DNA from: Halieaceae bacterium
GTDB taxonomy: Bacteria; Pseudomonadota; Gammaproteobacteria; Pseudomonadales; Halieaceae
Assembly: GCA_902547755.1 (NCBI GenBank)
Contig: CACCPA010000009.1
Span: 1 to 64,000, forward strand
Direction: 5' to 3'
Length of the DNA: 64,000 nucleotides
In this document: piece by piece, positions 2,485 to 28,052 of the stretch
Numbering within the stretch: the stretch's first letter is position 1
How the letters are laid out: the number at the start of each line of letters is the position of its first letter
Program-made: the position numbers and the translations under genes
The notes under the pieces: generated by a model
Database searches by the model: none
What the model saw: only the letters and a program-made list of their open reading frames with translations
Told to the model about the DNA's origin: nothing

Positions 2485-2506
2485 GAACGACTTTACTGCT
2501 TGGGCG

Positions 2507-7677: not shown

Positions 7678-9680
<2,003 letters not shown>

Positions 9681-9684
<4 letters not shown>

Positions 9685-10667
9685 TCGCCTGCCTGTTGGC
9701 GTCGATTAATCTCGTTGAGAAACGCGCCAGCCGCGGCGTCTTCGGCTCGCAGCGCTTTGAGCAATGCAACCATGTTGCGATCGCGCTCGTTCTCGAGCTG
9801 CATGACGGTTCGACCCGCTGCTTGCTCGTCTGATTGCTCAACAATGCGATCAATCAGCGCCTCATCAAGGTCGGGCACATCCATGAGCTTGGTCCAGGGC
9901 CATTCAAGACAGGGGCCAAATTGCTCAAGGAAGTGCTTCATCCCAGCTTGTCCACCGGCCACGCGATAGGTCTCAAAGAGCCCTTTCTGCGCCCAGCGCA
10001 GACCAAAACTGTGGGTAATGATGTCGTCAATCTGACCGGTTGTCGCCACGCCATCTTTTATTAGCCAAAGCGCCTCACGCCAAAGTGCCTCTAGCAGACG
10101 ATCGCCGACATGCGCTGGCACCTCGGCACCCAATACCACCGGTTTCATGGAGACCGACTCAAGGTAATCACTCGCCCGTTGCGTGACCTCTGGCGGCACT
10201 GCAGTCGAGGCAACCACCTCGACCAGCGGCAGCAAATAAACGGGGTTATACGGGTGCGACACAATGATCTGCTCGGGTCGGAGGGCGCCTTCTTGCAGCT
10301 CGCTCGGCATAAACCCGGAGGTCGAGGATGCGATGATGGCATTGGCATCACAGCTCTCCTGAGTACTCTTTAGAACTGCCTGCTTGACCTCGATACGCTC
10401 CGGTGTCGACTCTTGAATGTAGAGCGCACCTTCAACCGCATCCACCGTTGATGATGCGATGTACAAGCCACCTTCCTCGGGCACAACATCGCACAGCGCA
10501 GGTATTGCCTCGCGTCCCCGCTCTATGACGGAATGCAGTATGCGCTCCGCATCAGCACTGGGATCGAAAAAGCGAACATCCCAGCCGTTTAATAAAAACC
10601 GCGTCGCCCAACCTGAGCCAATCACACCACCGCCGATAATGGCGGCAGTTCGTCGCTTATCGGGCAT
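9681..10667 (-). CDS. lcdH: L-carnitine 3-dehydrogenase
   Basis: The enzyme oxidises L-carnitine to 3-dehydrocarnitine with NAD+ and belongs to the 3-hydroxyacyl-CoA dehydrogenase fold. The 328 residues match single-domain bacterial carnitine dehydrogenases. The Rossmann loop IGGGVIGSG is at 11-19, and the segment HPYNPVYLLPLVEV at 138-151 is a hallmark of this subfamily. Some homologues carry a fused C-terminal thioesterase; this one does not. Neighbours support the call: a BKACE enzyme upstream (overlap of one base, TAATG) and acetoacetyl-CoA synthetase downstream. Confidence 0.88.
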
Positions 10668-11578
10668 TACAACGGATCTCTTTTCACCAGGTTGAGTTCG
10701 GCGCGGACTTCCTCGGGGGTCATGATGCCCACACCCATGGCCGTGATGATGCCCGATGCTCTCTCCACCAACTCAGCATTACTCGCAAGGCGCCCGCGCT
10801 CCAACCAGAGGTTGTCCTCGAGGCCAACACGGACATTACCACCCGACAGAACAGCAGCGGCGACGAAGGGCATCTGGTTTTTACCGATACTGAAGGCCGA
10901 GTGAACCCAGTTACTGGGCACGTTATTCACCATGGCCATGAAGGTATTCATGTCATCGGGTGCGCCCCAAGGTATACCCATGCAAAGCTGGACCATGACA
11001 GGATCTTTAATGACACCCTCGTCGACCAACTGTTTGGCGAACCACAGATGCCCCGTATCAAACGCTTCGATCTCAATTTGAATGCCAAGGTCGGTCATAC
11101 GCTGCGCCATATCGCGCAACATACCGGGCGTGTTAGTCATCACGTAGTCGGCTTCGGCGAAGTTCATGGTCCCGCAGTCGAGCGTCGCGATCTCGGGCCG
11201 GCAGACTTCAAGATGCTCGACACGCTCAGCTGCCGACACCATGTCAGTCCCCGCTTCCTGCAAGGGCAACGGTGCCGCGGGCGGACCAAAGACAATATCT
11301 CCGCCCATACCCGCTGTCAGGTTCACCACGACATCGGTGTCAGAGGCGCGAATGCGCTCAACCACTTCTTTGTAAAGGTGAACATCGCGCGCCGGCGCGC
11401 CAGTTTCAGGATCACGCACGTGACAGTGAACAACCGCCGCGCCTGCCTTTGCAGCCTCGATGGCGTCATTGGCGATTTGCTCGGGACTGCGCGGCACTTT
11501 GTCACTCCGATCTTGCGTACTTCCGGAGCCCGTCAGTGCAGCGGTGATAAACACTTTTTTGCGCATGGCTAATGGCAT
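10667..11578 (-). CDS. BKACE-family 3-dehydrocarnitine cleavage enzyme
   Basis: BKACE enzymes (formerly DUF849) use a zinc ion to condense a beta-keto acid with acetyl-CoA and split it. With 3-dehydrocarnitine the products are betainyl-CoA and acetoacetate. The zinc ligands are visible as HCHVRD (His51, His53), with later family blocks EIEAFDTGHLWF and GLEDNLW. The frame is open from a TTG at 11584, but ATG 11578 is preferred because an aggga ribosome site sits eight bases upstream of it. It lies between the gamma-butyrobetaine hydroxylase-like gene and carnitine dehydrogenase, which is what assigns the substrate. Sequence alone shows only the family. Confidence 0.88.
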   Translation of the reverse strand: MPLAMRKKVFITAALTGSGSTQDRSDKVPRSPEQIANDAIEAAKAGAAVVHCHVRDPETGAPARDVHLYKEVVERIRASDTDVVVNLTAGMGGDIVFGPPAAPLPLQEAGTDMVSAAERVEHLEVCRPEIATLDCGTMNFAEADYVMTNTPGMLRDMAQRMTDLGIQIEIEAFDTGHLWFAKQLVDEGVIKDPVMVQLCMGIPWGAPDDMNTFMAMVNNVPSNWVHSAFSIGKNQMPFVAAAVLSGGNVRVGLEDNLWLERGRLASNAELVERASGIITAMGVGIMTPEEVRAELNLVKRDPL

Positions 11579-11677
11579 GGTCAAGTTCCCTATTGTTTCG
11601 CTCTGGTTGTCGTTATTTTTTGTTTCTACTTACTCGTCTCGGCTTTTGTTTCTAAGCCCAATCAATGGACCCGCTAG

Positions 11678-12883
11678 TCAGAAACACTTCGATCGGGCGT
11701 CCCTGTTCAGGGCACGACCACGAGACATGATCTCGTCGCGATCAATGTAGATACCTTGTAAGTGTCGCTTACCTGACCCCGTAAAGGCATTCCGCCCATG
11801 GAGTACACGGCGATTATCAAAGCACATGATGTCACCTGCGGTCAGGCGGAACTTCAATTCAAACTCGGGTTGATCGGCCATGCGGTGAAATAATCGCAAG
11901 GCATCGTAGGATCGGCTCACATCTTCATTGGCCATCGCTGGGAAGGCACGGACCGGATAAAACGCACGAATCGTCGGCGTGTCGCAGCCAGGCAAATAAT
12001 CAATGATGGGCGCGGACCAGCGATGATCGATGCCAGGGCCGCGGTTGAAGAAGATCCAATGCCGTGTCGACAGAAGCTCAAACGCATCAGGGTGATCTCG
12101 CTCAAGCGCCTCCACCAGTGCCGCGCCGTCGGTCAACGTAGATTCGCCGCCATCCGCCTCGTTAATCAGACAATGCAGGAACTGGAATCCCGGAGGAATC
12201 TCGCGTGTGGGTAAATCCGAATGAGGCCCTAGCCGCAAGCCCGTGTTCGCCGTGGAATTGGTCTTCGCATCACCGGCGAGCTCAACGTCGGCCTTCACGT
12301 CCCACAACATCCCGAAGTTACTGTCACGCACCGGACCGATCCGCTCAGCAAGATCGAGCAGGTAGCCCTCATGCGTTGGCGAGTTCTCCAACACACAGGC
12401 GCCATAGACGAGTAAGTTATTGAGTAACGTCAGGATGATCTCATCATTGTCCCGCGCCTCACTGCCATCCACACGTGGCACCTCACCAATGGAATCAGTT
12501 GTCCACGATATTGCCTCAGGAAGCCAACTGCTGGGCCGGTGATTATTATCGGCCACATGACGCAGCCACCCCGCGTGATAGACAGAGCGCTGGCCGTCAT
12601 CGGCCCACTCAACAATGAGATCTCCGGTGTCATCTACCACTGCTGCTTTCACTTCAATGTCATCAGTGAGTTCCGCAGGGTCGAGAATGCCCTCCCGGGT
12701 TGCTAGGTCGATGCCGCCCTGACCCATCGCGTTCTCGCGCAGCCAGAATCGGTGGCAGGCCAGCTTCGTATCATCAGGCCAGCGAAGATGTACGAAATCA
12801 CCCTCGGTGACGGCAGCGGTCAACGGGCTGGGTTCGTAGTGATAGAAGTCGGGGGCTAGTGCCCGTGAGACCGGAGTGTTCAT
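11678..12883 (-). CDS. Gamma-butyrobetaine hydroxylase-like 2-oxoglutarate dioxygenase
   Basis: Enzymes of this type hydroxylate gamma-butyrobetaine to L-carnitine using Fe(II), 2-oxoglutarate and O2. The 401 residues show an N-terminal GBBH-like domain (about 25-115) and a C-terminal TauD fold with the iron triad His221, Asp223 (in PHSDLPTRE) and His362 (in RRVLHGRN); Arg373 probably binds 2-oxoglutarate. Oddly, the N-terminal zinc cysteines of known enzymes (WLRDNC...C..C) are replaced here (FWLRENAMGQGG), so this domain may hold no zinc. It is the first gene of the operon, with a ggagg ribosome site and a perfect palindrome just upstream. A related substrate, such as another trimethylammonium acid, is possible. 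Confidence 0.8.
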   Translation of the reverse strand: MNTPVSRALAPDFYHYEPSPLTAAVTEGDFVHLRWPDDTKLACHRFWLRENAMGQGGIDLATREGILDPAELTDDIEVKAAVVDDTGDLIVEWADDGQRSVYHAGWLRHVADNNHRPSSWLPEAISWTTDSIGEVPRVDGSEARDNDEIILTLLNNLLVYGACVLENSPTHEGYLLDLAERIGPVRDSNFGMLWDVKADVELAGDAKTNSTANTGLRLGPHSDLPTREIPPGFQFLHCLINEADGGESTLTDGAALVEALERDHPDAFELLSTRHWIFFNRGPGIDHRWSAPIIDYLPGCDTPTIRAFYPVRAFPAMANEDVSRSYDALRLFHRMADQPEFELKFRLTAGDIMCFDNRRVLHGRNAFTGSGKRHLQGIYIDRDEIMSRGRALNRDARSKCF

Positions 12884-13237: not shown

Positions 13238-14755
13238 ATGACACCAAACCAACCAACACGTATGGCCACCGCACTCTTAAGCCCACTTCTAACGGCGGCT
13301 CTTGTCTTGGGAATAGTCAATGAACACAGCTTCGCGGCAGAGGGCTCAGACTCGGACAGTGGATTTGCCAATAGCCCAGCTGTCAAACTCGGACTGGAAA
13401 AATCTGGAATCGATCCCTCGGAGATTGCCACCTACAGTCAGTTTGCGGAGTCACTTTTAGCTGATGCCACCGCGCGCGTGACCGCCTATGGCGATGGCAA
13501 TGTGCCTGCCTACGCCGAGTACCTAAAAGACGTCTTTATCAAGGGTGGTTTTGATCCCAAAGACATCCACATTCTGCCGCTCGACGAGACCGTCTCACTG
13601 GTTGTGCGCTATCGGGGTGACGGCTCGAGCAATCGGAAGCCCGTGGTGTTCTCATCGCACATGGACGTGGTGCCTGCCGAGGCCGGCGAATGGGTGCGCA
13701 ACCCCTTCGAGCTACAGCAAGACGAAACCTTCTACTTTGGCCGTGGCGTGCTCGATAACAAGTTCGATGTATCGATGCTGACAACCCTGTTTGTATGGCT
13801 CAAAGCACAGGGCTTCGTACCCAATCGCGATCTCATCATTGCGTTTACCGGCGACGAAGAATCGCTGCAAAACACGGTGCAGGACCTCACCAAAAACCAC
13901 CGCAATCTGATTGATGCCGAATATGCCATTGTCGTTGATGGTGGTGGTGGCGCCCTGAATGACAGCGGTGCAGCCATTCAGTACATGGTGGGGTTTGCTG
14001 AGAAGACCTACGCCACTTACACGATGACCGCTAAAAATATTGGTGGTCACAGCTCAATGCCCCGAACAGACAACGCGATATTTGATCTTGCCGCCGCGAT
14101 CCAACGCATCGAGAACCACCGGTTCGCCATCGAGACAAATGAGATCACGCGCACCTACTTTGAGCGCTCAGCCCCCTTCCTCGACAACGAGGTGGGCGAG
14201 GCGATGCGGCGCTTCGCCGCCAACCCCAAGGACGAGGAAGCCATTGAGGTATTGCGCGCGCAACCCGAGTACATCGGTACCCTAGGCACCACCTGCATCC
14301 CGACTATGCTGAGTGGTGGGCATGCCGAAAATGCGCTGCCGCGTACCGCAACGGCCACGATCAATTGCCGCATCTTCCCCGGAAACAGTGTCGAGGACAT
14401 CATGGGAGAACTGAGTCTGGTGGCGGGCAATCCTCAGCTCGAGTGGGCCGTGTACGGCATGCCTGTGTCCAGTGACACCTCTCCCTTCAACGATGAGGTC
14501 ATGGGTGCCGTCGAGGCCTCGCTAACTCAGTTATACCCCGGCGCGCCCGTCATTCCTCGTATGATCTCGGGCACCACCGACGGTGCCTACTTCAGAGCCG
14601 CTGGCATCCCGAGCTATAGCCTTACCGGTATCTTCCTCAACCCCAAAGACAGCTTTGCGCACGGTCTGAATGAACGGGTCCGTCGAGCCAGTATTCCCGA
14701 GTCACTCATCTTCTGGCAGTCGATGATTCGGTCCATCGCAAGCGACGCAAACTAG
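13238..14755 (+). CDS. Exported M20-family metallopeptidase
   Basis: M20 enzymes are two-zinc exopeptidases or amidohydrolases. This 505-residue protein has a signal peptide (MTPNQPTRMATALL...NEHSFAA) and should act in the periplasm. Zinc-site motifs are in order: SSHMDVVPA, GRGVLDNKFDV, the catalytic GDEES, VDGGGG, and a C-terminal SGTTDGAYF block, with a dimerisation domain inserted between. Two ATGs lie six bases apart (13232 and 13238). The second is better spaced from gagag, so I took it. The substrate is unknown; next to a probable nutrient island it may release amino acids from peptides or N-acyl compounds before uptake by the downstream carrier. Confidence 0.87.
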   Translation: MTPNQPTRMATALLSPLLTAALVLGIVNEHSFAAEGSDSDSGFANSPAVKLGLEKSGIDPSEIATYSQFAESLLADATARVTAYGDGNVPAYAEYLKDVFIKGGFDPKDIHILPLDETVSLVVRYRGDGSSNRKPVVFSSHMDVVPAEAGEWVRNPFELQQDETFYFGRGVLDNKFDVSMLTTLFVWLKAQGFVPNRDLIIAFTGDEESLQNTVQDLTKNHRNLIDAEYAIVVDGGGGALNDSGAAIQYMVGFAEKTYATYTMTAKNIGGHSSMPRTDNAIFDLAAAIQRIENHRFAIETNEITRTYFERSAPFLDNEVGEAMRRFAANPKDEEAIEVLRAQPEYIGTLGTTCIPTMLSGGHAENALPRTATATINCRIFPGNSVEDIMGELSLVAGNPQLEWAVYGMPVSSDTSPFNDEVMGAVEASLTQLYPGAPVIPRMISGTTDGAYFRAAGIPSYSLTGIFLNPKDSFAHGLNERVRRASIPESLIFWQSMIRSIASDAN

Positions 14756-14955
14756 CTGACAAAAGCACGACAAATCAGTCACATTGAATCCGCCGGAAAC
14801 GACCGTATGGCAACAAAAATCGCGAATTACTTTGCGCTCAAATTGAGTGAAAATTCACACCCAACAAAGAGCGCAAAATTCACAGATTTGAACGCTTGCG
14901 TGGCGATAAAAAATATTGAAAATGCGCGCTCCGAAATTCACTTGGGCCGGGCGAT

Positions 14956-16316: not shown

Positions 16317-16380
16317 GCTGGAAGTTTTCGCCTAAACCCACTTATGCTGACGTCTCTGGTGGCAGTAGCGAGTGCGTTTC

Positions 16381-17670
16381 ATGGGCACTTCAACAATTCC
16401 CGTTCGGTGGCGCTTTTTCTCCGTCATCTTCATCCTGAGTTTTCTCTCCTACATGCTCCGCCAGCACTTTCCTGTCGCCGGCGAGTTCATGATGAAAGAA
16501 CTGGCCATCAGCGAGCTGCAGATGGGCTGGGTGTACGGGGCCTTTTTCTGGGGCTACCTCGTTTTTCAGATCCCGGGCGGCATTTTAGGTAAACGCTTCG
16601 GTCCGCGACTGACTCTTCTCGTCGCAGGCGCCATATGGGTACTCGCCTGCCTACTATTCGCGCTGTTGCCGGGCAGTTTCGAATCGTCCGTCCTAGGCAC
16701 CGTTGGTCTACTGATTGCCATTCGCGTGGTCATGGGAGCCGCGCATGCTCCCATCTACCCCGTTCAAGCCGCCTTGGTGGAACGATGGTTCCCTGTCGGG
16801 CAGTGGGCCCTACCCAATGCGGTCTCGAGCACGGGCCTGTCTTTGGGCGCCGCGGCGGCTGCACCCATATTCTCTATCGTGATTCTCAACTATGGCTGGC
16901 GCGCTTCGTTTCTTGTCTTCGTACCCCTGGGACTGTTGTTCTTCTCAATTTGGTGGTGGTACGCGCGCGATAACCCCAGGGAACACCCAGCCATGTCCGA
17001 GGCTGAGCTAGAGAGGATCGAAGCGAATCGTTCAGGTTTGACCCAAGATGCAGGCTATGGCGCGTGGCGCCAGCTGCTGGGGCACCGAGAAACCTTGCTA
17101 CTCGCCTCCGCCTATTTCACGCATAACTTTGTCTTCTACTCTTTCGCTACCTGGTTTTTCCATTATCTGGTGAACGTCCTCGGCTTCGGCATTATCGAGT
17201 CAGGCATGCTGGCCGCCGCTCCCTGGGTACTAGGTGCTGTAGCGGCGACGGTTGGAGGATGGGTCTGCGACACCTTGTGTGACCGCCTGGGCCCCAAACT
17301 AGGTTGTCGTATCCCCGCAATGAGCGGTCTGATCGGCACAGGCATCTTCCTCTACCTCGGCCTGTACGCCTCGTCGCCCTATGTTGCTGTTGCCCTACTC
17401 TCGCTCTGCTACGCCTTTACGCAATTCGCCGAGGGCTCTTTCTGGTCAGCTCAGATACACCTTGCAGGCCCATATACGGCACCCGCCTGCGGGCTCATGA
17501 ATACGGGCGGTAGCATTTCTGGCATCATCGTAGGGCCTCTTATGCCCTTCCTTGCGCTCAAGGTAGGTTGGGTGGTGGCATTGAGTACGGGCACCCTTGT
17601 CGCCTTCATTGGTGCGGCGCTGTGGATGTTCATCCGCGTCGACAAGCCCTTCCAACCAGGGACGAATTAA
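16381..17670 (+). CDS. MFS transporter of the anion:cation symporter type
   Basis: This is a second twelve-helix major facilitator (about 430 residues). The N-terminal pattern GWVYGAFFWGYLVFQIPGG, then LGKRFGPR, is typical of the ACS/organic-anion group that carries hexuronates, phthalate or other carboxylates. ATG 16381 is listed; an in-frame GTG at 16372 fits ggtgg upstream equally well, so the start is uncertain by three codons. It precedes the TauD-type dioxygenase by 150 bases on the same strand, so it may bring in that enzyme's substrate. That link is inference from order alone. Confidence 0.85.
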   Translation: MGTSTIPVRWRFFSVIFILSFLSYMLRQHFPVAGEFMMKELAISELQMGWVYGAFFWGYLVFQIPGGILGKRFGPRLTLLVAGAIWVLACLLFALLPGSFESSVLGTVGLLIAIRVVMGAAHAPIYPVQAALVERWFPVGQWALPNAVSSTGLSLGAAAAAPIFSIVILNYGWRASFLVFVPLGLLFFSIWWWYARDNPREHPAMSEAELERIEANRSGLTQDAGYGAWRQLLGHRETLLLASAYFTHNFVFYSFATWFFHYLVNVLGFGIIESGMLAAAPWVLGAVAATVGGWVCDTLCDRLGPKLGCRIPAMSGLIGTGIFLYLGLYASSPYVAVALLSLCYAFTQFAEGSFWSAQIHLAGPYTAPACGLMNTGGSISGIIVGPLMPFLALKVGWVVALSTGTLVAFIGAALWMFIRVDKPFQPGTN

Positions 17671-17819: not shown

Positions 17820-18641
17820 GTGAAGGTTGAACGTCTCACTCCAGCCTTGGGCGCCGAAATCAACATTGATCTCGGCCACATCACCGCCGACGGCGCACAA
17901 GCTGTTTACGATGCACTCATGACGCATCAAGTCGTCTTTTTCCGGGATCAGCAAATGACGCCGGCACAGCATATCGAGCTGGCCAAGCACTTCGGTGAAA
18001 TTGACGTGCCGCACCCCGTCTATCAGAAGCACCCAGAGATTCCTGCTATTACGATACTCGAGAACGACGCCAATCGGCCGCCCGATACCAACGACTGGCA
18101 CAAGGACCTGACCTTTCGGGAGTCTCCCCCCTTCATGTCCATTCTGTACGCGAAGAAGGTGCCTGTGACCGGCGGCGACACGCTGTGGGCCAATATGGCG
18201 CTGGCCTATGACAACCTCGCGCCTCATATGCAGGAGATGCTTGGAACACTCGATGCGGTGCATGATATCGGCTGCTTTAGAAACGACTACCTCGGTATGG
18301 AGTCAAACATCCAAGCTATGAACGAAGGTGTTTATAGCAATGGTGCCTGGGTACACCCGGTTATAGGCACCCATCCAGTTACGGGCGATAAGTACATCAA
18401 TGTGAATCGCTCGTTCACCCAGCACATTGTGGGTATGCTCAAGGCGGAGAGCGACCGTCTACTCGAGTACCTCTACTCACACATTGATCAACCTGAACAT
18501 CAGGTGCGATTCCGCTGGCGCGATAATTCGGTCGCCATCTGGGATAACCGAGTGACCCAACACTACGCGCTCGCCGACTACCTGCCAGACTACCGCTGCA
18601 TGAATCGGGTAACGGTTAATTCTGATCGGCGCGCTGCCTGA
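17820..18641 (+). CDS. TauD/TfdA-family 2-oxoglutarate dioxygenase
   Basis: This Fe(II)/2-oxoglutarate oxygenase has 273 residues, close to taurine dioxygenase. Iron ligands are His94 and Asp96 (DWHKDLTF) and a distal histidine near 248 (NRVTQHYALADY). An arginine in the YRCMNRVTV block near 259-263 probably binds 2-oxoglutarate. It starts at GTG with a strong gcgggga ribosome site. Members of the family hydroxylate taurine, sulfonates, 2,4-D-like acids, quaternary ammonium acids and others, so the name TauD would be too specific. The gene converges on the Rieske gene with only eight bases between stops. Confidence 0.87.
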   Translation: MKVERLTPALGAEINIDLGHITADGAQAVYDALMTHQVVFFRDQQMTPAQHIELAKHFGEIDVPHPVYQKHPEIPAITILENDANRPPDTNDWHKDLTFRESPPFMSILYAKKVPVTGGDTLWANMALAYDNLAPHMQEMLGTLDAVHDIGCFRNDYLGMESNIQAMNEGVYSNGAWVHPVIGTHPVTGDKYINVNRSFTQHIVGMLKAESDRLLEYLYSHIDQPEHQVRFRWRDNSVAIWDNRVTQHYALADYLPDYRCMNRVTVNSDRRAA

Positions 18642-18649
18642 GTTTCAAC

Positions 18650-19912
18650 TCAAGCGTGGCTGGCCTCTTCGAGATGATGTAGGTACCAACCCACGAACTT
18701 CTGAAGCGTGGCTTCAAACTCGGGGTGATACGGGCCTGGTTCAAAGAACCGAGAGTTCACGCCGGCATTGTTGCGAAGAATGATGTATTCGTCTTCCTGA
18801 GTGGTGTGGTCCCAGAGCCAGACGACATCCTCGCGATTGTAGTCTTTACCCTCTTCCGCATCACCACGAACAAACCAAACCAGTTCAACATCGGTCTCGG
18901 TGAGTGATCGCGGGAGGAACCGGTAGAGAACGCAGTGGTCCGGGTAGTTCAGCATGAAAGTCAACGGACCCATCTGATAGTCACCGGCCCCACCGTCATA
19001 GTCTCTGATGTTGCCCATCAGCGGCGCTACCGGTTGCCCGTCGCGACTACCTGTGACATTTCCTTCATACAAACCATAGCGCATGGTGTGGACACAGGCG
19101 CCAAAGCCCTCCGCGTCCCGATAAATCTTGGTGTACTGCTTGGACATGCCGGGCACACCCGTCACATCGTCGGAGCGCTCGAGTAATGCCTCCACAATCG
19201 GAGCCACTTTTTCATGCAAATCTTTGAACGTGTGGAGCTTGGCATAGGCGCGGTGCGAGGTAGCGCAGTGATAGCACTCGAGATAGTTCTCAAGCACAAG
19301 CTTCCAGTTCGCATCGATCTTGTAGGTCTGTCGGTGGGCAACCTTGGCGTTAGCGAGATCATAGGCACCCAGCGGCTCGCGAATATTCTCAAGCGGTCCC
19401 AGAAAGTCAGCGGCATTAGGGTCGCAGTTGATGAACACCAGTCCCATGTATTCGACACAGCGGACAGGTTTGAGACCGTGTACTGCCGTATCAAAATTGG
19501 GCATGACATGGGTTTCGCGCGCGGCCTTAAGACTGCCATCGAGGTTATAGACCCAGCCATGGTACGGGCAGACAAAGGTACGCTTATTCCCCGTTGCGGC
19601 TTCGCATACTTGCGCGCCGCGATGGCGGCAAATGTTGTGCATGGCTCGAATCTCACCGTCGTCGCCACGAACGACAATGATCGAGTCCTCACCAATGTCT
19701 ACTAGCTGATAATCACCCTTTTCCGGTATTTCGCTGCTGTGCAATGCATACAACCAGCTCTTAAAAACGAGATGATCGAGTTCTCGCTCATAGACCAGAT
19801 GCGAGCGATAGAAATAGGCATCCATGGCGTGCTGCGGACGCTCTCGCTCGGCAGCAAGCTTCTCGCACATCCGCTCAAGGGAGTCGTCAACTTGTGTGGC
19901 AATAAGGTGCAT
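18650..19912 (-). CDS. Rieske non-haem iron oxygenase, alpha subunit (quaternary-ammonium type)
   Basis: The 420-residue protein carries a [2Fe-2S] Rieske site (Cys95, His97, Cys115, His118 in CRHRG...CPYHGW) and a mononuclear iron site (NYLECYHCATSHRAY, with His215 and His220). The bridging residue is Glu212, not the Asp of aromatic-ring dioxygenases; this is a mark of the quaternary-ammonium group that includes carnitine oxygenase and glycine betaine monooxygenase (GbcA). Length also fits GbcA. No reductase subunit lies beside it. It is the last of four tightly packed genes, four bases after the GcvT-like gene. An N-demethylating role, for example on glycine betaine, is plausible but inferred. 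Confidence 0.82.
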   Translation of the reverse strand: MHLIATQVDDSLERMCEKLAAERERPQHAMDAYFYRSHLVYERELDHLVFKSWLYALHSSEIPEKGDYQLVDIGEDSIIVVRGDDGEIRAMHNICRHRGAQVCEAATGNKRTFVCPYHGWVYNLDGSLKAARETHVMPNFDTAVHGLKPVRCVEYMGLVFINCDPNAADFLGPLENIREPLGAYDLANAKVAHRQTYKIDANWKLVLENYLECYHCATSHRAYAKLHTFKDLHEKVAPIVEALLERSDDVTGVPGMSKQYTKIYRDAEGFGACVHTMRYGLYEGNVTGSRDGQPVAPLMGNIRDYDGGAGDYQMGPLTFMLNYPDHCVLYRFLPRSLTETDVELVWFVRGDAEEGKDYNREDVVWLWDHTTQEDEYIILRNNAGVNSRFFEPGPYHPEFEATLQKFVGWYLHHLEEASHA

Positions 19913-19916
19913 GATG

Positions 19917-21101
19917 CTAGTGCGCAGGTGCCGGTGTCTGGCGTTTACGCGAGGGATTAAACAGTGGACCGTCGATGACCTTGCAGGGCGCCATCAATCG
20001 CGTCCACTGCAACTCGCGCTGATAGTAGATCTCAGCAACAAACTCATCCCCAACAGCGCCGTGCGGCATCTCTACCTGCGCAAACGCGAGGTTCGACTTC
20101 ACCGTGGGACACCAAGCGGCAGAGGTGACGATACCGATCTGCTTACCATTCTTGAGGATAAACGAGTGCTCGGCGGGCTTATTGCCCTCGACATCAAGCA
20201 GAACAAACCGATATCGCAGGCCTTCTTCTTTCTGCTTTAAAAGCGCGGCGCGGCCGTTGAACAGTGGTTTATTAAAATCGACCTGCCAATCCAAGCCTAT
20301 TTCGAGGGGCGTGCGGGTCCGCCCGGGGCGCACCGCAATTTCCGCTGGAACGAAGTCGACCTTGGCCTGCAGGAAACCCGCCTCAATACGCGCCATGTGA
20401 AGCGCGTGCGAGCCGATGGGCTTAATCAGGTAATCACGTCCCTTCCCGAATAGCTGATCCCAGAGCGCTTCGGCTTTACTGGGGTCGATCCAGACTTCAT
20501 AGCCCAAATCTCCCGTAAAGCCAGTGCGGCTGACCATCATCTCAACGCCCTCGAAATCGAATCGCGCAATGCCAAAGGGCTTGAGTTCGTTCAAGCCTTC
20601 ACAGCCAATCAAGGTCAGAATAGTGCAGGACACAGGGCCCTGGATGGCTAGCGCCGCAATATCATCAGACTCATTGTTGATCGTCACGTCAAAACCGAGT
20701 GCGTTCCACTCGAGCCACTCATCGGCGCGCATGTAGGAGCAGAGCCGGTAATCGTTCTCGGCAAGATGGAAGATCGTTCCATCGTCCATGAGCTCACCCG
20801 CGTCATTACACCAGACCGCGTAGCCCACTCGGTTAACACCAATCTTGCTGACGTCACGTGTGACCAAGCGATTGAGGAAGGCTTCTGCATCAGGCCCCGA
20901 GATGCGGTACTTATTCATGGGGGATAAGTCGAGTACGCCCGCTGTGCTGCGAATAGCGAAATATTCGAGCTCCACATCGAAGTAGGAGTTTGGCGTGGTA
21001 TAGCCCTGCCACGCGCCCCAATCGTTGAGTTCGCAGTTCTGCTCTACCCGCGAGTGAAACGGTGTAGTCAGCAACATTGTCTTGCGTTCAGCAGCGCTCA
21101 T
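19917..21101 (-). CDS. GcvT-like tetrahydrofolate-dependent methyltransferase or demethylase
   Basis: The family includes glycine-cleavage T protein, DMSP demethylase DmdA and the O-demethylase LigM, all of which move a one-carbon unit to tetrahydrofolate. The 394-residue protein has the GcvT N-terminal fold (FDVELEYFAIRSTAGVLDLS), the folate-site aspartate region ELMDDGTIFHL, the RTGFTGDLGYEVW signature and a C-terminal barrel. The open frame reaches 21191, but the extra residues are unlike the family; ATG 21101 overlaps the upstream stop as ATGA and is preferred. No gcvP or gcvH is near. With the Rieske oxygenase next door it may capture a methyl or formaldehyde carbon. Confidence 0.85.
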   Translation of the reverse strand: MSAAERKTMLLTTPFHSRVEQNCELNDWGAWQGYTTPNSYFDVELEYFAIRSTAGVLDLSPMNKYRISGPDAEAFLNRLVTRDVSKIGVNRVGYAVWCNDAGELMDDGTIFHLAENDYRLCSYMRADEWLEWNALGFDVTINNESDDIAALAIQGPVSCTILTLIGCEGLNELKPFGIARFDFEGVEMMVSRTGFTGDLGYEVWIDPSKAEALWDQLFGKGRDYLIKPIGSHALHMARIEAGFLQAKVDFVPAEIAVRPGRTRTPLEIGLDWQVDFNKPLFNGRAALLKQKEEGLRYRFVLLDVEGNKPAEHSFILKNGKQIGIVTSAAWCPTVKSNLAFAQVEMPHGAVGDEFVAEIYYQRELQWTRLMAPCKVIDGPLFNPSRKRQTPAPAH

Positions 21102-22666
21102 GACAAGACCCCCTGCTTGAGCATTTCTTCCGCCGCATTTTTCCCAGCGAGGCCCATGAGGCTCCCGCCCGGATGCGAGCCTGCACCGCAAAGATAAAGC
21201 CCTTCGACGCTACCCGTGTACTGCGTCGATCCCGGGAAAGGACGCATCATCAGGGACTGATCAATCGAAAGCTCGCCATGGTGCCAGTTACCGCCTGTCA
21301 TACCGTGTGATGCCTCAAAGTCCTCAGGCACACGCACTTCGCTTGCAACAATGAGATCGCGAATCCCTGGGGCATAGGCCTCGAGTTGTTCGAGGAGTGA
21401 CTCAAGTAACTGCTCGCGAGCACCTTCATCACTGTCCCAACCCGTCTTGAGCTTGTAGGGCACGTAATGCACCAACGCCGTCAGGACGTGCTGACCTGCC
21501 GGTGCTAACGTCGGGTCTTCGATGCTTGAAATGCTGATATCGAACACATGCTGCGAGGTCAGCTCCCTGTATTTGATGGGGTTTAAGCCAGTTTCCATGG
21601 CGTCCATGGATGGCGCAATGATCAAACGTTGACTGTGATCCTCGGCGGAAACGCCGGTAAACGATGGCAGCCCGGACAAGGCCAAATGTAACTTGCCGGT
21701 GCCGGAACGCGTTCGGTATTGTTCGACACGACGCGCTTGTCCCGCCTCAATATGGCGATAACCCAGGAGATCTCGGTAGGTCGTTGTGGGGTCAGCGCTC
21801 GACACCACGGCCGTCGCCTCAACAACGTCACCCGAGCTCAATTCAACGCCGGTAACACGGTCATGGGTCTTGATAATACGAGTAACAGCTTCGCCTAAGC
21901 GAACCTCAACACCCTGTGTTTTTGCTGAACTCAGCAGTGCGCCGCCAAGACTCCCCATGCCGCCCATCACCTGACTCACGCCACGATTACCTAACGCCTC
22001 TCCGACCATACGGTGGATGTATGTGAATACGGTATTGGGAGATCGCGGACCCATGTTGGTTCCTGTGATGGCATCAAGCGCCACCGCAGCTTTGAGCCCA
22101 TCGTGCTCAAAGTGCTCGTTCATTACGTCGTAAATGTTGATTAGTACGAGCCGCATCATGTCCTGCATGTTCTTGCGACCCATCATCTTCAAGCCGAGCC
22201 CCAAGGACAGCAGTGTCATGCGATCACCCCAATCAGCGTCGACCATCTTGGGCGCGCGGGTGCGATAGAGCTTGAGCATCAACTTGCCGAAGGCGCGCAT
22301 TTGCGACCGAAACGCTTTGTAGGCCCTCTTGTCCGCTGCGCTGATCTCGGCGCCGCTGAGGCTGTCACCATCGAGGGTCAAGTGATCGCCACTCGCCTGA
22401 AGCGCAATCGTTCGCTTGGCCTTACCCAGTCGCAAACCGTGCATTTCAAGACTGAGCTCTTGGACGATCTTGTCATCGAGTTGATGCACCCACTGGGCGC
22501 AGTCCGAGATATGAAACCCATTGGTAAACGCTTGGGTGCTCGCACAGCCACCTGCTTCGCTGCGGGCATCCACGACCAATACTTTCTTTCCCGCCTTGGC
22601 GAGGTAGCTCGATGTAATCAGCCCGTTGTGCCCCGCACCGATCACGATGGCATCGTAATTAGTCAT
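21098..22666 (-). CDS. COG1233-type FAD-dependent oxidoreductase, copy 2
   Basis: This belongs to the phytoene-desaturase/PYROXD2-like flavoprotein family. The FAD site IGAGHNGLITSSYLAKAG lies at the N-terminus, followed by EAGGCAS, and the C-terminal FAD block LYLCGAGSHPGGSLMGLAGKNAA closes the fold. Of two in-frame starts (22672 and 22666), MTNYDAIV matches its neighbour best. It overlaps the upstream paralogue by eight bases. No carotenoid gene is near, so a desaturase role in pigment synthesis is unlikely. The reaction is unknown; oxidation of an amine or of a ring is possible. Confidence 0.8.
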   Translation of the reverse strand: MTNYDAIVIGAGHNGLITSSYLAKAGKKVLVVDARSEAGGCASTQAFTNGFHISDCAQWVHQLDDKIVQELSLEMHGLRLGKAKRTIALQASGDHLTLDGDSLSGAEISAADKRAYKAFRSQMRAFGKLMLKLYRTRAPKMVDADWGDRMTLLSLGLGLKMMGRKNMQDMMRLVLINIYDVMNEHFEHDGLKAAVALDAITGTNMGPRSPNTVFTYIHRMVGEALGNRGVSQVMGGMGSLGGALLSSAKTQGVEVRLGEAVTRIIKTHDRVTGVELSSGDVVEATAVVSSADPTTTYRDLLGYRHIEAGQARRVEQYRTRSGTGKLHLALSGLPSFTGVSAEDHSQRLIIAPSMDAMETGLNPIKYRELTSQHVFDISISSIEDPTLAPAGQHVLTALVHYVPYKLKTGWDSDEGAREQLLESLLEQLEAYAPGIRDLIVASEVRVPEDFEASHGMTGGNWHHGELSIDQSLMMRPFPGSTQYTGSVEGLYLCGAGSHPGGSLMGLAGKNAAEEMLKQGVLS

Positions 22667-24275
22667 CGGCATAGCTCCCCGGGACGGTATTGGGGCGTTT
22701 CAGATCACAGAGAATCTCGCGCGCAGCGTTAGCGCCCGGCGCCGCCATCACGCCACCACCCGGGTGTGTACCAGAGCTGCACATGTACATACCCTTAATG
22801 GGCATCCGGTACTGCGCGTAACCCGGGAAGGGGCGATTAAAGAGCAGCTGATCGAAGGTCAGCTCTCCCTGGAAAATATTGCCCTCGGTCAGCCCTACTT
22901 CAGCCTCGATCTCGCGCGGCGTCCGCGTCTCACAGTGGAGAATCAGGTCGCGGAAATTCGGACTGTATTTTGAAATTTGATCGATAACCGACTTCTCGAA
23001 CCCGTCCTTGTCCTCGTCGGTCCACTCGCGGCCCTCAACTTTAGGCGGCGCGTACTGAACAAAGACCGACATCATGTGTTTGCCCGGTGGCGCCATGGTC
23101 GGATCCGTCAAAGAGGGGATCATCATGTCGAGATAAGGGTCTTTCGACCAGGTGCCGGCCTTCCAGTCATCGTAGGCACGCTCCATGCGTTCGAGTGAAT
23201 CACTGAAGTGCAGATCGCCCGCCATGAGCGGATTCTTGGGGTCGAGGCCATCGAACATTGGCAAGCCATCCAGGGCAATATTCAGCTTCCCGGAGGAACC
23301 ACGAATTTTGAAGTTCTTGGCTTTCTGAACTACGTCTTTGGGAAGATCGCGCTCGTCCGTAATATCGAGCAACGTCCGCTTGGGATCGAGGTTCGAAACG
23401 ACGATATCAGCGAAGTATTCATCACCGTTCTTAAGCGAAACGCCCTTAGTGCGGCCACCCTTCACGATGATGCGATCCACGTTGGCATCGCAGATGATTT
23501 CGCCGCCGAATGACTGAAGCGATTTTGAAAGTGCATTGGCAATGGCGCCCATGCCACCACGAGCAAAACCCCAGGCACCCACGTTCCCATCGACATCACC
23601 CATGTAATGATGAAGAAGAACATAAGCCGTGCCCGGCGAGTACACACCGAGCGCTGTACCAATGATGCCACTGCCCGCGTGCTGCGCCTTGATAACGTCC
23701 GTTTCAAAGTACTCGTTAAGGTAATCCCCGACCGAGGTCGTCCAGAACTTGATGGTGTCCAGCAGCCCCTCTTCATCCATGTTGATGAAGGGTTTTGCAA
23801 ATTCCACAAGGTCCTTAAGGTCTCTCAATTTAAGTGATGTGGGATCGGGCGGCGTCTTGAGCAGGAAGGGTCGAATCAGGCGTGTCTGACGGCTGGTATC
23901 TGCTTTGTAGCGCTCGTAGGCATTGGCATCGCGCTTCGAGTGCCGCGAGATCTCACGATACTTGCGCGCATAGTCGCTGTAGTTCCCGAAGTGATCACCG
24001 TTCTGCATGAAGGTGGCGCCGCCGCCAAAAGGCACGACTTGCAGACCGTGACGAGGCAACTCAAGGTCTCGGGTAATCTCGGGACGGAGTAAGCTCGATA
24101 CGTAGGAACAATTGGAGTAGTACCAGCCCTCATAGAGCTCTCGACTCACCGTCGCACCGCCAATGTGGGGATTCCGCTCGAGTACGGCTACCTTTAGCCC
24201 CGCCTTGGCGAGATAAGCCGCGTTGGTCAGCCCGTTATGACCGGCACCGATAACGATGGCGTCGTATTTATTCAC
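22659..24275 (-). CDS. COG1233-type FAD-dependent oxidoreductase, copy 1
   Basis: This is the first gene of the four-gene operon, 538 residues, starting at GTG with a ggaga ribosome site. It shares the frame of its neighbour: N-terminal IGAGHNGLTNAAYLAKAG, then HIGGATVSRE, and a C-terminal MYMCSSGTHPGGGVMAAPGA block. The two paralogues are clearly diverged, so they probably have different partners or form a heteromer rather than being a recent duplication. Homologues are usually annotated only as FAD/NAD(P)-dependent oxidoreductase. The function is not established. Confidence 0.8.
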   Translation of the reverse strand: MNKYDAIVIGAGHNGLTNAAYLAKAGLKVAVLERNPHIGGATVSRELYEGWYYSNCSYVSSLLRPEITRDLELPRHGLQVVPFGGGATFMQNGDHFGNYSDYARKYREISRHSKRDANAYERYKADTSRQTRLIRPFLLKTPPDPTSLKLRDLKDLVEFAKPFINMDEEGLLDTIKFWTTSVGDYLNEYFETDVIKAQHAGSGIIGTALGVYSPGTAYVLLHHYMGDVDGNVGAWGFARGGMGAIANALSKSLQSFGGEIICDANVDRIIVKGGRTKGVSLKNGDEYFADIVVSNLDPKRTLLDITDERDLPKDVVQKAKNFKIRGSSGKLNIALDGLPMFDGLDPKNPLMAGDLHFSDSLERMERAYDDWKAGTWSKDPYLDMMIPSLTDPTMAPPGKHMMSVFVQYAPPKVEGREWTDEDKDGFEKSVIDQISKYSPNFRDLILHCETRTPREIEAEVGLTEGNIFQGELTFDQLLFNRPFPGYAQYRMPIKGMYMCSSGTHPGGGVMAAPGANAAREILCDLKRPNTVPGSYADD

Positions 24276-24455: not shown

Positions 24456-27400
24456 CTAGAGTTGCTCGATCGCGAAAGCGTTAGCCGCAGCCTCAACCAC
24501 CGTGCCATCACTGAACGTGACCGTAATCGCCTCATCGCTGTAGTTGTAGACCACGTAGCTGGTCACACCGGCATCCGTCCCGAAGGCCATCGCGGCAGGA
24601 TAATCTGCGGTAAGAGCTCCCGTGCCCGTCTGGAGTTCGCCCAAAGCACGCATGGTGTAAATCCAGTGATAGGTGTGCGCAGGGGCCTCACCTGCTTCAG
24701 GCTCGTAGCTTGCCGTGGCTTCGAAATCTGCAATTGCAGCATCGGCATCTGTCATTGACCATAAGTTCCACCAGAGGTCCGTCCAGTGACCATTTGGTAG
24801 ACCCGATGGCTTGCCGTTAGGCGACTCCTCGAGACCCAAGGTCACGTAATCATCGAGATAGTCCGCAAACAAACCGACGTGCATGATCAACGGGTTCGAG
24901 GGTAGACCCTGAATGCCCAGAATATGAGCGAACGCCGGGCTGAACCAGGTCGAGAAGGCACTGCCATCACCCCAGATGATGGAGGTAGTGATCCGTGGGT
25001 AGCCCGGTGGGAAGTTCCGAGCATCTGGATCGGTACCCACGTAACCATCGATGTCGTTCCAGTACTCCCAGTACGTCGCCGAAGTTGATGCGTGCAGGTA
25101 CATGCCACGCTCCATAATGTCATCATTACCTGTCACCAGTCCGTACAGGACCATAGCGCCGTAGGCATTGGCTGCCTCGGAGGTCGACTCATTATTGTTT
25201 CCGCGAACGAAGTTTGCATGACCCGAGGCCCAGGAGAACCCGTTGGCAGGATCAAAATTGCGCAGGTAGGGGAACATCGGATCATTCTTGCCGCCCGCAT
25301 AGTCACGAATGAGCAATTCGAACATTTGCCCGTACTGCTCGTCGCTACAGAACGCCTTATCGACTCGACAGACCTCCGCCGCGGCGCGAATGAAGTAGCC
25401 GTAGTGGAAATGGTGATCGTTCAACTGCTGATGCGAGGCGAACGACTCCTCCATGCCGAGGAGCGTGCTCCAGTTGGGTTCGTACACGAAATAGTTTTCG
25501 CTATCCAAGGTGCCATCGCGTTCAGCGCTCATCCAGTCAGCGAGTTCGCCCTTGAGCCAATCGCGCAAGGTGGTGGCTTCGTCGACCATACCCAGTTGGT
25601 CGGCGATGGCCAGAACTTCTGACAGACGGCCCACCGCCTTACCGTTCCAGTACGTGTCGTTGGCGGTATTCCAATAGCCAGTGCCACCGGCAACAAAATC
25701 CTCGACCAAGCCACGTAGCTCGGTCTCGTTAAGTGACCCATCAATGAGTGGCAGGGCGGGCAGCACACCGACAGACGGCAGGTCGTAATCGAAGCCGGTC
25801 ATTGGCGAAAATTTCACGAGACCCCGTGCACTACGAACCGACGTGGCATAGCCCATGGCTGTTGCACGCTTCCACTGGAGCGGCATTAGGCCCGCGAGTG
25901 TCTCGACCGGTGCGTTGTCATCATCGAGATAGCGATGGCTCACCGTCACGGTATTGGTGGAGCGATCCACTGCATAATCAATGGTGACATGCTTCACTTT
26001 GTTACGAGCATAGCTCTCGAGCGTCTGGCGCACTGATGCGGTCGTCTCAGGTGCCCAGACCAAGGTGAAGGAGTTGCCTGCTGCAGAAATAGTGACGGTG
26101 TCCGTATCGACGCCGCTGAACGTTGTACCGGCATCGCCAACAATCAGGAAGTCATTGCGCTGCCCGGCAACACTACTCCAGATACCAAGGCTGTCACCGC
26201 CCTCATGCCATACGCCCCGCTCACCACTGTTAGCACGCAAGGTCTTCAGCGTTGGGGTGCCCGAGTAAACCTCGAAGAACACAAATGGAGAGCCATAAAC
26301 AAAGGTGGCTTCCATAATCAGTGAGTCACCCTCGTACCAGCCCGCGGTAATGGCGCCCTCGGAGTAGTCGAGCAACTTCACATCCATGTTGCTGTGCGCG
26401 TTGTTAGCAATCGCAGCACCATCGAAGACTTCAGCAAACGGATCAGGTACGGCATAACCAAAGCCACCTGTATTGGCACCAATACCCGGTGGGATACCCA
26501 TGAATCGCGCACCACGTTCGGTGAGTCGCGCCATGATTGGATCAGGTGTGATGTAACCCGCACCGTTAGGGTCACCTACGCGCATCTCACCGATGAACGA
26601 GACGGATCCCCACCAACGGTGAGTCATTGTGTGCTTATTCGCGGCCGCGCCCGCCAACTGCGGATACTTAGGCGTTGGGTCACCCTGGGGCCTTCCAGTT
26701 GCGGTTTCGCAGAACGGGATACCGGGCTCGACCACACCTGCGTTGTAGATCCAGTTACCGTAGTCATACACGCAGCGATAGCTCGCTGGGTTAATAGTGT
26801 CCGAGTAGCTTCCCAGACCCATTTGCGTCAGGTTGAAAGGCAATGTTACCACGGGAGGCGGCGGTTCGGCCGTCTCATCAAAGCCCGTGAAGCGCACATT
26901 ATCAATCTGGAAGACTGTGTCTTCGAACTTACTCGCCCAAATGACCAAGCCCGTATTCACTTCACTCAGATTGAGACCACCGGCCGTCAGCTGTGAGATG
27001 GGAACACTCACTGCTTCCCAGCCACTGGCACCTTTCTCACCTAGGTGTTGATCACCCGACGTACAGGGATAAAAGCAGTCCAGTTTCACAGTGATTTCGG
27101 CATCACCGGAGACCACTTTGATGTCGAATTCGATGTGACCGTTCACGTAGCTGTTAAGGTCCACTGCCGCTGACGAGGCAAAGAATAGGCCTGCAAGATT
27201 TTGGTTGTTCGCGTGCGTTACCTGAAGCACGTCACCACGATCGGGGTCGGAAACAAATTCCCAAGCAATGGATGGGCAGCCTTCGCCGCCGTCGTTGCTG
27301 CAATCACCCCACCCGATAGCCTGGTCAAACGCATTGATGCCGCGGTCCCAAACGCCATCGACAATGCCCTGAGTCATTACCAGCTGATCATCGGCCTCGT

Positions 27401-28052
27401 TGCCACCACCACCGCCACCGGTGGGTGGGGGCTCAGGCTCGGGTTCGAGGACGGTTACCATCCGCTGTACTTGCGATGAGTTACCAGCCGCATCGGTTGC
27501 CGTATACGTCAGTGTGTAGGTGCCGGCAGCACTACCCACACTACCTGTAATGACGACCTCGAGCGTGCCATCAACGCTATCGACCGCCGTGGCACCCTGT
27601 TCAATGTAGGCGGTATCAGCCTCAAGCGTAATCGAGCCACTGCCGTTGAGCGTTACCGTTGGCGCCGTGGTGTCCGAAACGGTGACCACGCGCTCGGCGG
27701 ACGCTTCATTTCCTGCTGCGTCAGTGGCGGTATAGGTCAGCGTATAGATACCCGCCGTAGCGGTATCGACGGTGCCAGAGACCGACACAGTGACTTCACC
27801 ATCGGTGTCGTCATTGGCTAAAGCACCCGGATCTGTGAACTCTGTACCCTGCTCCACACGCATTTCTGCGTCACCCGACAACGTAATCGTGGGTGGTGTC
27901 GTATCCGCAGATGGAGCTGGTGGTTCAACGACCACAGGTGGTGCACTAACAGCACCGCTGCCACCCCCACCGCAGGCAGTGACGAATATCGCTAAGAATA
28001 GTGCTGATAACAATGGAAAACTCGAGGTGAAACGGTACAACGGTTTCGGCAT
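24456..28052 (-). CDS. GH81 endo-beta-1,3-glucanase lipoprotein with Ig-like and jelly-roll modules
   Basis: The enzyme should hydrolyse beta-1,3-glucans such as laminarin at the cell surface. The 1,198-residue protein opens with a lipoprotein signal (FVTAC, Cys27) and a Gly/Pro linker, then two Ig-like DUF5011/HYR modules (about 50-125 and 128-205, each with a YTLTYTATDAAGN strand), a Pro/Gly linker, a jelly-roll domain (about 225-393, ending FQIDNVRFTGF) that may bind sugar, and a GH81 catalytic region from about 405 to 1,120. The GH81 blocks NDHHFHYGYF and FVRGNNNESTSEAANAYGA hold the expected acidic catalytic residues. It stands alone, with its own terminator and no transporter beside it. 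Confidence 0.9.
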   Translation of the reverse strand: MPKPLYRFTSSFPLLSALFLAIFVTACGGGGSGAVSAPPVVVEPPAPSADTTPPTITLSGDAEMRVEQGTEFTDPGALANDDTDGEVTVSVSGTVDTATAGIYTLTYTATDAAGNEASAERVVTVSDTTAPTVTLNGSGSITLEADTAYIEQGATAVDSVDGTLEVVITGSVGSAAGTYTLTYTATDAAGNSSQVQRMVTVLEPEPEPPPTGGGGGGNEADDQLVMTQGIVDGVWDRGINAFDQAIGWGDCSNDGGEGCPSIAWEFVSDPDRGDVLQVTHANNQNLAGLFFASSAAVDLNSYVNGHIEFDIKVVSGDAEITVKLDCFYPCTSGDQHLGEKGASGWEAVSVPISQLTAGGLNLSEVNTGLVIWASKFEDTVFQIDNVRFTGFDETAEPPPPVVTLPFNLTQMGLGSYSDTINPASYRCVYDYGNWIYNAGVVEPGIPFCETATGRPQGDPTPKYPQLAGAAANKHTMTHRWWGSVSFIGEMRVGDPNGAGYITPDPIMARLTERGARFMGIPPGIGANTGGFGYAVPDPFAEVFDGAAIANNAHSNMDVKLLDYSEGAITAGWYEGDSLIMEATFVYGSPFVFFEVYSGTPTLKTLRANSGERGVWHEGGDSLGIWSSVAGQRNDFLIVGDAGTTFSGVDTDTVTISAAGNSFTLVWAPETTASVRQTLESYARNKVKHVTIDYAVDRSTNTVTVSHRYLDDDNAPVETLAGLMPLQWKRATAMGYATSVRSARGLVKFSPMTGFDYDLPSVGVLPALPLIDGSLNETELRGLVEDFVAGGTGYWNTANDTYWNGKAVGRLSEVLAIADQLGMVDEATTLRDWLKGELADWMSAERDGTLDSENYFVYEPNWSTLLGMEESFASHQQLNDHHFHYGYFIRAAAEVCRVDKAFCSDEQYGQMFELLIRDYAGGKNDPMFPYLRNFDPANGFSWASGHANFVRGNNNESTSEAANAYGAMVLYGLVTGNDDIMERGMYLHASTSATYWEYWNDIDGYVGTDPDARNFPPGYPRITTSIIWGDGSAFSTWFSPAFAHILGIQGLPSNPLIMHVGLFADYLDDYVTLGLEESPNGKPSGLPNGHWTDLWWNLWSMTDADAAIADFEATASYEPEAGEAPAHTYHWIYTMRALGELQTGTGALTADYPAAMAFGTDAGVTSYVVYNYSDEAITVTFSDGTVVEAAANAFAIEQL

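Follow-up and report, generated by a model that had tools for sequence, protein, structure and literature searches.

Two COG1233-like flavoproteins, a GcvT-like protein and a group V Rieske oxygenase: a candidate N-demethylation module in a Halieaceae bacterium

What reaction would call for two related flavoproteins, a folate-binding protein and a Rieske oxygenase to be produced together? The question is raised by a locus on contig CACCPA010000009.1 of a Halieaceae bacterium (assembly GCA_902547755.1), of which the stretch from position 1 to 64,000 was analysed (hereafter the window). The source genome is of the Luminiphilus type and 72% complete. On the minus strand, from 18650 to 24275, four open reading frames (ORFs) follow each other in the order FlvA, FlvB, GcvT-like and Rieske, and they form a four-gene operon. 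On balance we lean towards an N-demethylation module, one that would act on a quaternary amine or on some other amine with N-methyl groups; the Rieske protein would come first, the two flavoproteins second and the GcvT-like protein last. The parts are of known kinds; no description of their combination was found in the titles and abstract openings of the open-licence literature searched, which is weak evidence of absence.

The first gene, FlvA (22659–24275, minus strand), starts with GTG and encodes a COG1233/CrtO-like FAD flavoprotein of 538 residues. It is followed by FlvB (21098–22672, minus strand), which encodes a second COG1233-like FAD flavoprotein (524 residues, about 35% identity to FlvA), by a gene for a GcvT-like folate-binding protein of the aminomethyltransferase family (19917–21101, minus strand; 394 residues, ATG start), and by the gene for the alpha subunit of a group V (quaternary-amine) Rieske oxygenase (18650–19912, minus strand; 420 residues). 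FlvA and FlvB overlap by 14 bases if the ATG at 22672 is the start of FlvB, or by 8 if the in-frame ATG at 22666 is used; FlvB and the GcvT-like gene overlap by 4 bases, and a gap of 4 bases separates the latter from the Rieske gene. A longer ORF for the GcvT-like gene that starts with TTG is unlikely. The tight packing described in an initial annotation of this DNA was thus found again, and its assignment of protein families agrees with Pfam and NCBIfam. In Pfam, both flavoproteins are matched by Amino_oxidase and NAD_binding_8 among others, the third protein by GCV_T, and the fourth by Rieske and Ring_hydroxyl_A. All NCBIfam matches listed for the four proteins (the best 25 of 44 for FlvB and the best 25 of 63 for FlvA) lie under the curated cut-offs, and by that measure none of the four counts as a regular member of any family named there.

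The module is real and widely conserved, and is no oddity of a single strain. A set of species genomes scanned with an alignment of FlvA yielded at least 594 stretches, at least 582 of them related at an E value of 1e-3 (stretches, not distinct genes). The locus counts out of 79 given here refer to the best 79 loci among the latter and were made by tblastn because the ORF caller mislabelled some loci, L035 for example. Record titles among them include Halieaceae, Porticoccaceae, Woeseiaceae, Kiloniella, Shinella and Mesorhizobium. FlvB lies directly after FlvA in 70 of the 71 loci with room for it, and GcvT comes next in 63 of 64, the sole exception being L117, which has neither FlvB nor GcvT. 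A Rieske gene (at least 38% identity) is found in the flank of 38 of the 79 loci, and of 22 of the 33 whose flanks reach 9 kb on each side; in the remaining 41 of the 79, some of which are short stretches, the core has no Rieske gene nearby. For 26 of these 41, lying in 25 genomes, the search was widened to the whole genome, and in 17 of the 25 a Rieske match was present elsewhere at an E value of 1e-40 or better (in 13 of them over at least 376 of the 420 residues, with an identity of 37% or more). Thus, FlvA, FlvB and GcvT make up the constant core, and the Rieske gene is its frequent, non-obligatory partner. The co-occurrence that the initial annotation proposed to look for is widespread and not limited to one strain, but its unit of four genes recurs with only the first three constant.

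Closer to home the association is tight. Of 58 genomes, our own included, 26 have FlvA (70% identity or more) and 29 have the Rieske protein (50% or more); 25 have both, 28 have neither, and five are discordant (Fisher p 6e-11, with phylogeny ignored and most genomes from one genus). In three of the five (G036, G011 and G024) the operon is interrupted by a contig end, and in G023 and G025 the Rieske match is a fragment, which in G025 starts at the first base of the contig. The core also recurs in the alphaproteobacterial plasmid loci L031–L036 (unrecognised by the ORF caller in L035), where its genes are annotated in the records as NAD(P)/FAD-dependent oxidoreductase and aminomethyltransferase. 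A Rieske gene of the clade is present only in L032 of these loci; L033, L034 and L036 carry others with 25–34% identity.

Two variants of this arrangement deserve mention. In L086 a Rieske-like ORF of 120 residues (14472–14834; 44% identity over the match), possibly a remnant, lies just 3' of GcvT. A diverged second core with the order FlvB-FlvA-GcvT is present in L055 and L057 (same genus) and in L056 (same order); genes labelled PuuB-like (see below) go with it in L055, L056 and L057, and PuuA-like genes in L055 and L057. A DmdA-like gene lies about 7 kb from the second core in genome G028.

The Rieske protein gives the clearest indication of chemistry. By sequence its nearest solved structures are 3n0q and stachydrine demethylase (Stc2), then CntA, and its AlphaFold model (predicted local distance difference test score, pLDDT, 89.6) has its best PDB fold matches in the same order. 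The core-linked Rieske proteins comprise 54 rows, 52 of them distinct because L038/L058 and L050/L076 are the same loci. The cluster motif CxH...CxxH and the motif N-Y-x-E-C-x-x-C (ECYHC without exception) are present in 54 of 54, and the Tyr of the latter stands at the position of CntA Y203. Residues E212, C213, C216, H215, H220 and D374 are invariant in 15 of 15 aligned proteins, the iron ligands being assigned by alignment. The protein thus has the ligands of the Rieske cluster and of the mononuclear iron (His, His, Asp), the bridging Glu and the Cys-x-x-Cys that are shared by the group V enzymes CntA/YeaW, Stc2, GbcA and 3n0q. It differs from them in that its place in the tree and its Tyr point to different branches, and in having no adjacent reductase. 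In a quick tree of 47 rows (no bootstrap, three PDB rows of half length and several long branches), it groups with the Stc2, 3n0q and GbcA-like rows and not with CntA/YeaW (SH-aLRT branch support 97), and yet the Tyr at position 203 is as expected for clade Va, the CntA type, which has Tyr or Phe there. The quaternary-amine type named in the initial annotation is borne out by this placement with Stc2/3n0q inside group V, away from the ring dioxygenases. One of the proteins placed among the core-linked ones comes from a Leisingera plasmid whose fetched stretch lacks the core, and Rieske proteins of Rhizobium, Shinella and Yoonia adjoin the group.

According to two studies, Tyr 203 of CntA holds the trimethylammonium group by a cation-pi contact, whereas Asn takes this position in Stc2 and GbcA, and Stc2 binds the carboxylate of its substrate to iron (PMC7948474); the Cys pair is described as a mark of some group V enzymes (PMC10952381), and Tyr and Cys pair are tied to quaternary ammonium substrates (PMC7948474, PMC10952381). 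As judged from its residues, the protein appears to combine a Vb-like body with the Tyr of Va, a combination that would fit a quaternary amine not obliged to carry a carboxylate.

The GcvT-like protein is neither a plain GcvT nor a DmdA. All 28 core rows fall in a single clade (support 100) apart from E. coli GcvT, the gcvT product of our own genome and four DmdA rows. The Asp-Asp motif of GcvT, the second Asp of which we take to be catalytic in that enzyme, is kept in 28 of 28, and the four DmdA rows have Asn-Asp. The scores lie below the cut-offs for both gcvT (TIGR00528, 171.7 against 235.85 bits) and DmdA (NF009133, 139.8 against 410 bits), and the true gcvT (317 bits) is located on another contig, in line with the initial annotation, which had set the folate-family protein apart from gcvT (gcvH and gcvP were not looked for). 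The top match in both NCBIfam and PDB is trimethylamine N-oxide (TMAO) demethylase, Tdm (262 and 168 bits); the match is, however, confined to the C-terminal, GcvT-like half of Tdm and stays far below the cut-off of 1100, and the position of the clade beside Tdm is weak (support 76). By score, the protein is closest to the TMAO demethylase and GcvT families and not to DmdA.

The two flavoproteins are harder to place. Their best named matches are CrtO (FlvA 290 and FlvB 212, cut-off 1000) and crtI_fam (FlvA 116 and FlvB 133, cut-off 238), and the AlphaFold model of FlvA is most similar in fold to a carotenoid desaturase, while nicotine, putrescine and monoamine oxidases appear lower in the list; these fold matches are only a hint because the model is of moderate confidence (pLDDT 76.7). 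One might take this as a sign that the substrate is a lipid, a sterol or a compound resembling a carotenoid. We consider this most improbable, since the scores are far under the curated cut-offs, so that neither protein belongs to the CrtO/phytoene desaturase family, many of the genomic contexts concern amine transport or catabolism, and the Rieske residues are those of the quaternary-amine group. Amino_oxidase and NAD_binding_8 are the best matches of both flavoproteins, with DAO matches at the N-terminus, and they are indeed of another type than those of the known GbcAB/DgcAB route, as the initial annotation stated.

Demethylases that join a flavin oxidase to a folate domain of the GcvT fold are known, namely DMGDH, DMGO and the alpha subunit of sarcosine oxidase, and a cooperation of this kind is what we propose by analogy for FlvA, FlvB and the GcvT-like protein. 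The known enzymes, however, fuse a different flavin domain to GcvT, whereas here the flavin and GcvT parts are separate proteins and the flavoproteins are two and COG1233/CrtO-like. As the proteins are unfused and the flavin families are others, the module may work like the DMGDH type and is not a member of it.

With regard to the electron supply of the Rieske oxygenase, the initial annotation correctly noted that the operon contains no reductase gene, and suggested that one of the flavoproteins might feed the oxygenase. A YeaX-like reductase was absent from four of five Luminiphilus genomes and represented by one weak partial match in the fifth, which together with the lack of a reductase gene in the operon would favour this suggestion; a YeaX search of our own genome was likewise empty, made without a positive control and with other reductase types not searched genome-wide. 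Nevertheless, FlvA or FlvB as reductase seems very unlikely to us. Both match FAD-domain families and have neither a Fer2 nor a reductase NAD_binding_1 domain, and both are retained in the loci that have no Rieske gene nearby. Moreover, across 106 loci and the middle part of the window, the ORFs include a YeaX-like reductase near the core in Kiloniella (L121) only, where it is a separate protein encoded by the third gene after GcvT, though no clade-member Rieske gene lies in that flank. A generic reductase as electron source is the simple assumption. Taken as a whole, the initial annotation is thus upheld in part: its packing, its families and its statement on the reductase stand, and the flavoprotein as electron donor is not supported.

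For the reaction sequence we propose the following. The group V Rieske oxygenase would oxidise one N-methyl group of R-N+(CH3)3, giving R-N(CH3)2 and formaldehyde. FlvA and FlvB as a pair would then oxidise the remaining N-methyl groups to the iminium, and the GcvT-like protein would move the carbon onto tetrahydrofolate (THF) as 5,10-methylene-THF, by analogy with the fused enzymes DMGDH and DMGO. What the data show directly is the gene order, the placement of the families, their conservation and co-occurrence, and the key residues. All of these reactions, the substrate, and the concept of FlvA and FlvB as one enzyme are what we infer; the chemistry as such is likely.

Which amine would be the substrate? 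One candidate is suggested by the surroundings of the operon, which the initial annotation had overlooked. About 6 kb away on the minus strand, at 7678–12883, genes for an acetoacetate-CoA ligase, a carnitine-dehydrogenase-like protein, a BKACE-family protein and a gamma-butyrobetaine-hydroxylase-like protein probably form a carnitine or butyrobetaine route. The operon could then complete the breakdown of carnitine, the neighbours cutting it to glycine betaine and the operon taking over the role of GbcAB/DgcAB in demethylating this to glycine. Among NCBIfam models, the Rieske protein in fact comes closest to GbcA (NF058607), although 285 bits against a cut-off of 670 leave it outside that family, and a BCCT transporter is encoded close to the operon in L041 and, as judged by homology, in L042 and L048. 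We nevertheless judge this route rather unlikely. Of 27 mapped loci, only L038–L040, close relatives of the window, have such carnitine genes next to the Rieske operon; none was found in the 79 loci, although L058 stops short of where they would lie. On a Shinella plasmid (L037, 7991–14158), LcdH- and BKACE-like genes surround a diverged pair of FlvA (40%) and GcvT (32%) that lacks FlvB. At position 203 the Rieske protein shares the Tyr of CntA and does not have the Asn that is reported for GbcA and Stc2. Furthermore, contig C6 of our own genome (L145, 6444–15482) encodes a DMGDH-like fused DAO-GcvT protein beside a convergent RACo/pterin-binding/corrinoid/MttB operon that could serve glycine betaine; because of this set glycine betaine is not the likeliest substrate of the operon. 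MttB is present in all four Luminiphilus genomes tested. No GbcA over the cut-off was found in 58 relatives and 143 genomes of the class, a search that shows little because the control genomes were likewise empty.

Loci of other genera point elsewhere, and these neighbours too had escaped the initial annotation. Their family names derive from single representatives, most of which score under curated cut-offs, and the identity limits are our own; 'PuuB-like' and 'PuuD-like' are labels given from family and place. Near the core of the 79 loci we found a BetI-type TetR regulator (48), an acyl-CoA dehydrogenase (25), a PotF-like protein (24), a CoA ligase (22), a PuuA-like member of the glutamine-synthetase family (19), a GntE-like aminotransferase (18), a PuuB-like DAO oxidase (14), an aldehyde dehydrogenase (8), a PuuD-like GATase (7) and a SpuC-like aminotransferase (6). 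In 43 of the 67 loci with room, the BetI-type regulator gene lies upstream in divergent orientation, no more than 2 kb away. The representative of the transporter ATPase passes the cut-off of the polyamine subfamily (TIGR01187, 424 against 356), and the representatives of the SpuC-like and PRK07036 aminotransferases pass theirs; those of PotF (328/636), PuuA (203/650), GntE (446/525) and the CoA ligase remain below. Because of the PotF-type transporter, the polyamine-type enzymes and the BetI-like regulator, a polyamine-like methylated amine is indicated, and for the family as a whole a methylated polyamine-like cation is more likely than glycine betaine.

Two further observations concern the regulator family. 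In L118 (4590–9196) a corrinoid/pterin-binding/RACo operon is divergent from the core, with a BetI-like regulator gene between them; this genome does not have the Rieske protein, and an MttB gene was not found in the flank, a more distant MttB being present elsewhere in that genome. In L066 (20667–21614) the C-terminal domain of a BetI-type TetR protein is joined to a GNAT acetyltransferase, a family present in 10 loci.

The PotF-like proteins allow a closer look at the putative ligand. All 26 keep D39, D247, D278, W37 and W244, which form the primary-amine site and the aromatic box of E. coli PotF. F276 is replaced by Trp, E185 is replaced in 26 of 26 (Asp in 14, Ser in 9, Thr in 3), and Asp is found at PotF position 182 in nine of 26, as counted by eye. 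According to PMC8666671, F276W moves PotF towards spermidine, most with A182D. The replacement of E185 in every protein weakens a plain PotF reading, that is, import of putrescine. Judging from these residues, the ligand might be polyamine-like, with an ordinary primary amine at one end and a modification at the other; the dull alternative is that the proteins have simply diverged.

The same neighbours could mean that FlvA and FlvB oxidise unmethylated polyamines or their products, with GcvT and Rieske confined to side reactions such as capture of formaldehyde. The PotF-like, glutamine-synthetase-family, DAO, GATase and SpuC-like aminotransferase genes are compatible with such a role, as is the putrescine oxidase among the fold matches of FlvA; but a GcvT-like gene next to FlvB in 63 of 64 loci, and a frequent group V Rieske protein with the cation-pi Tyr, would not be needed for it, and we regard it as improbable. 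The known Puu gamma-glutamylation pathway with Pot transport resembles the clusters of other genera in that PotF-like, glutamine-synthetase, DAO and GATase genes lie together, and differs in that a demethylation module is no part of it; these genes are absent from the window. Extending the proposal of an N-demethylation module, it is tempting to speculate that marine and rhizobial bacteria share a widespread and as yet undescribed pathway for the uptake and degradation of N-methylated polyamines, with the core and its group V Rieske protein as the central demethylation machinery. Methylated propyleneamine chains like those in diatom silica would be one example of such substrates. The methyl carbon would be saved as methylene-THF and the backbone degraded via gamma-glutamylation or CoA-dependent steps. 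This wider proposal is tentative, and we would sooner expect it to fail than to hold.

Several points weigh against the proposed module or its polyamine extension. The PuuA, PuuB and PuuD labels are weak: the PuuA-like representative scores on the gamma-glutamylputrescine synthetase model barely above another glutamine-synthetase model (197), the PuuB-like protein stayed under the cut-off of the pipecolate-oxidase models that it hit, and for the PuuD-like protein Pfam GATase was the only match. The changes in the PotF-like proteins may be divergence, because among 250 PotF hits F276W is already present in a third, and the conservation of E185 (at least 96%) was reported for the same hits (PMC8666671). 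PotF- and Puu-like genes are absent from the window (the rest of our own genome was not searched for them), and therefore this organism may use a different substrate; contig C2 of our own genome carries a glutamine-synthetase gene that shares 44% identity with a PuuA-like one. No Rieske relative was found genome-wide in eight of the 25 core-bearing genomes, five of which have an MttB-family protein and three of which have none. Most alphaproteobacterial core loci, with the exceptions of L032 and L134, have in their flank a Rieske gene of another branch (25–34% identity) or none, and Rieske proteins in or near the clade occur with no core in the fetched stretch in L025 and L027–L029. The scarcity of YeaX-like reductases and the carotenoid desaturase as best fold of FlvA count on the same side, and our searches brought up no FlvA/FlvB-type enzyme that has been characterised.

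On the plus strand of the window, the near neighbours of the operon are genes for a TauD-family dioxygenase, two MFS transporters and an M20 peptidase. The TauD-family gene (17820–18641, plus strand) is convergent with the operon, and its product scores 290 bits on the taurine dioxygenase model (cut-off 313). A relative with 92–94% identity occupies the same place in L038 and L039 and was not found in L040; the protein is possibly an accessory, seen there in close relatives only. One MFS transporter (16372–17670, plus strand) is a candidate importer with relatives near the operon in eight loci (L038 and L058 being the same contig), and APC, BCCT or MFS transporter genes lie near the operon in Luminiphilus relatives. 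The gene immediately upstream of FlvA, also on the minus strand (24456–28052), encodes a GH81-family protein with Ig-like domains, possibly a beta-1,3-glucan hydrolase. A ferric-reductase-like membrane protein and a molybdopterin oxidoreductase at 1876–3484 form a pair that resembles MsrPQ.

N-methylated amines constitute a large pool of nitrogen and carbon in the sea, and to our knowledge only part of the routes by which they are used is known. If our proposal is true, the FlvA-FlvB-GcvT core would add another coupling of amine oxidation to folate across gamma- and alphaproteobacteria, and it would serve as a marker for substrates that have not yet been sought. The puzzle of the COG1233 proteins would thereby become an assay with named candidates.

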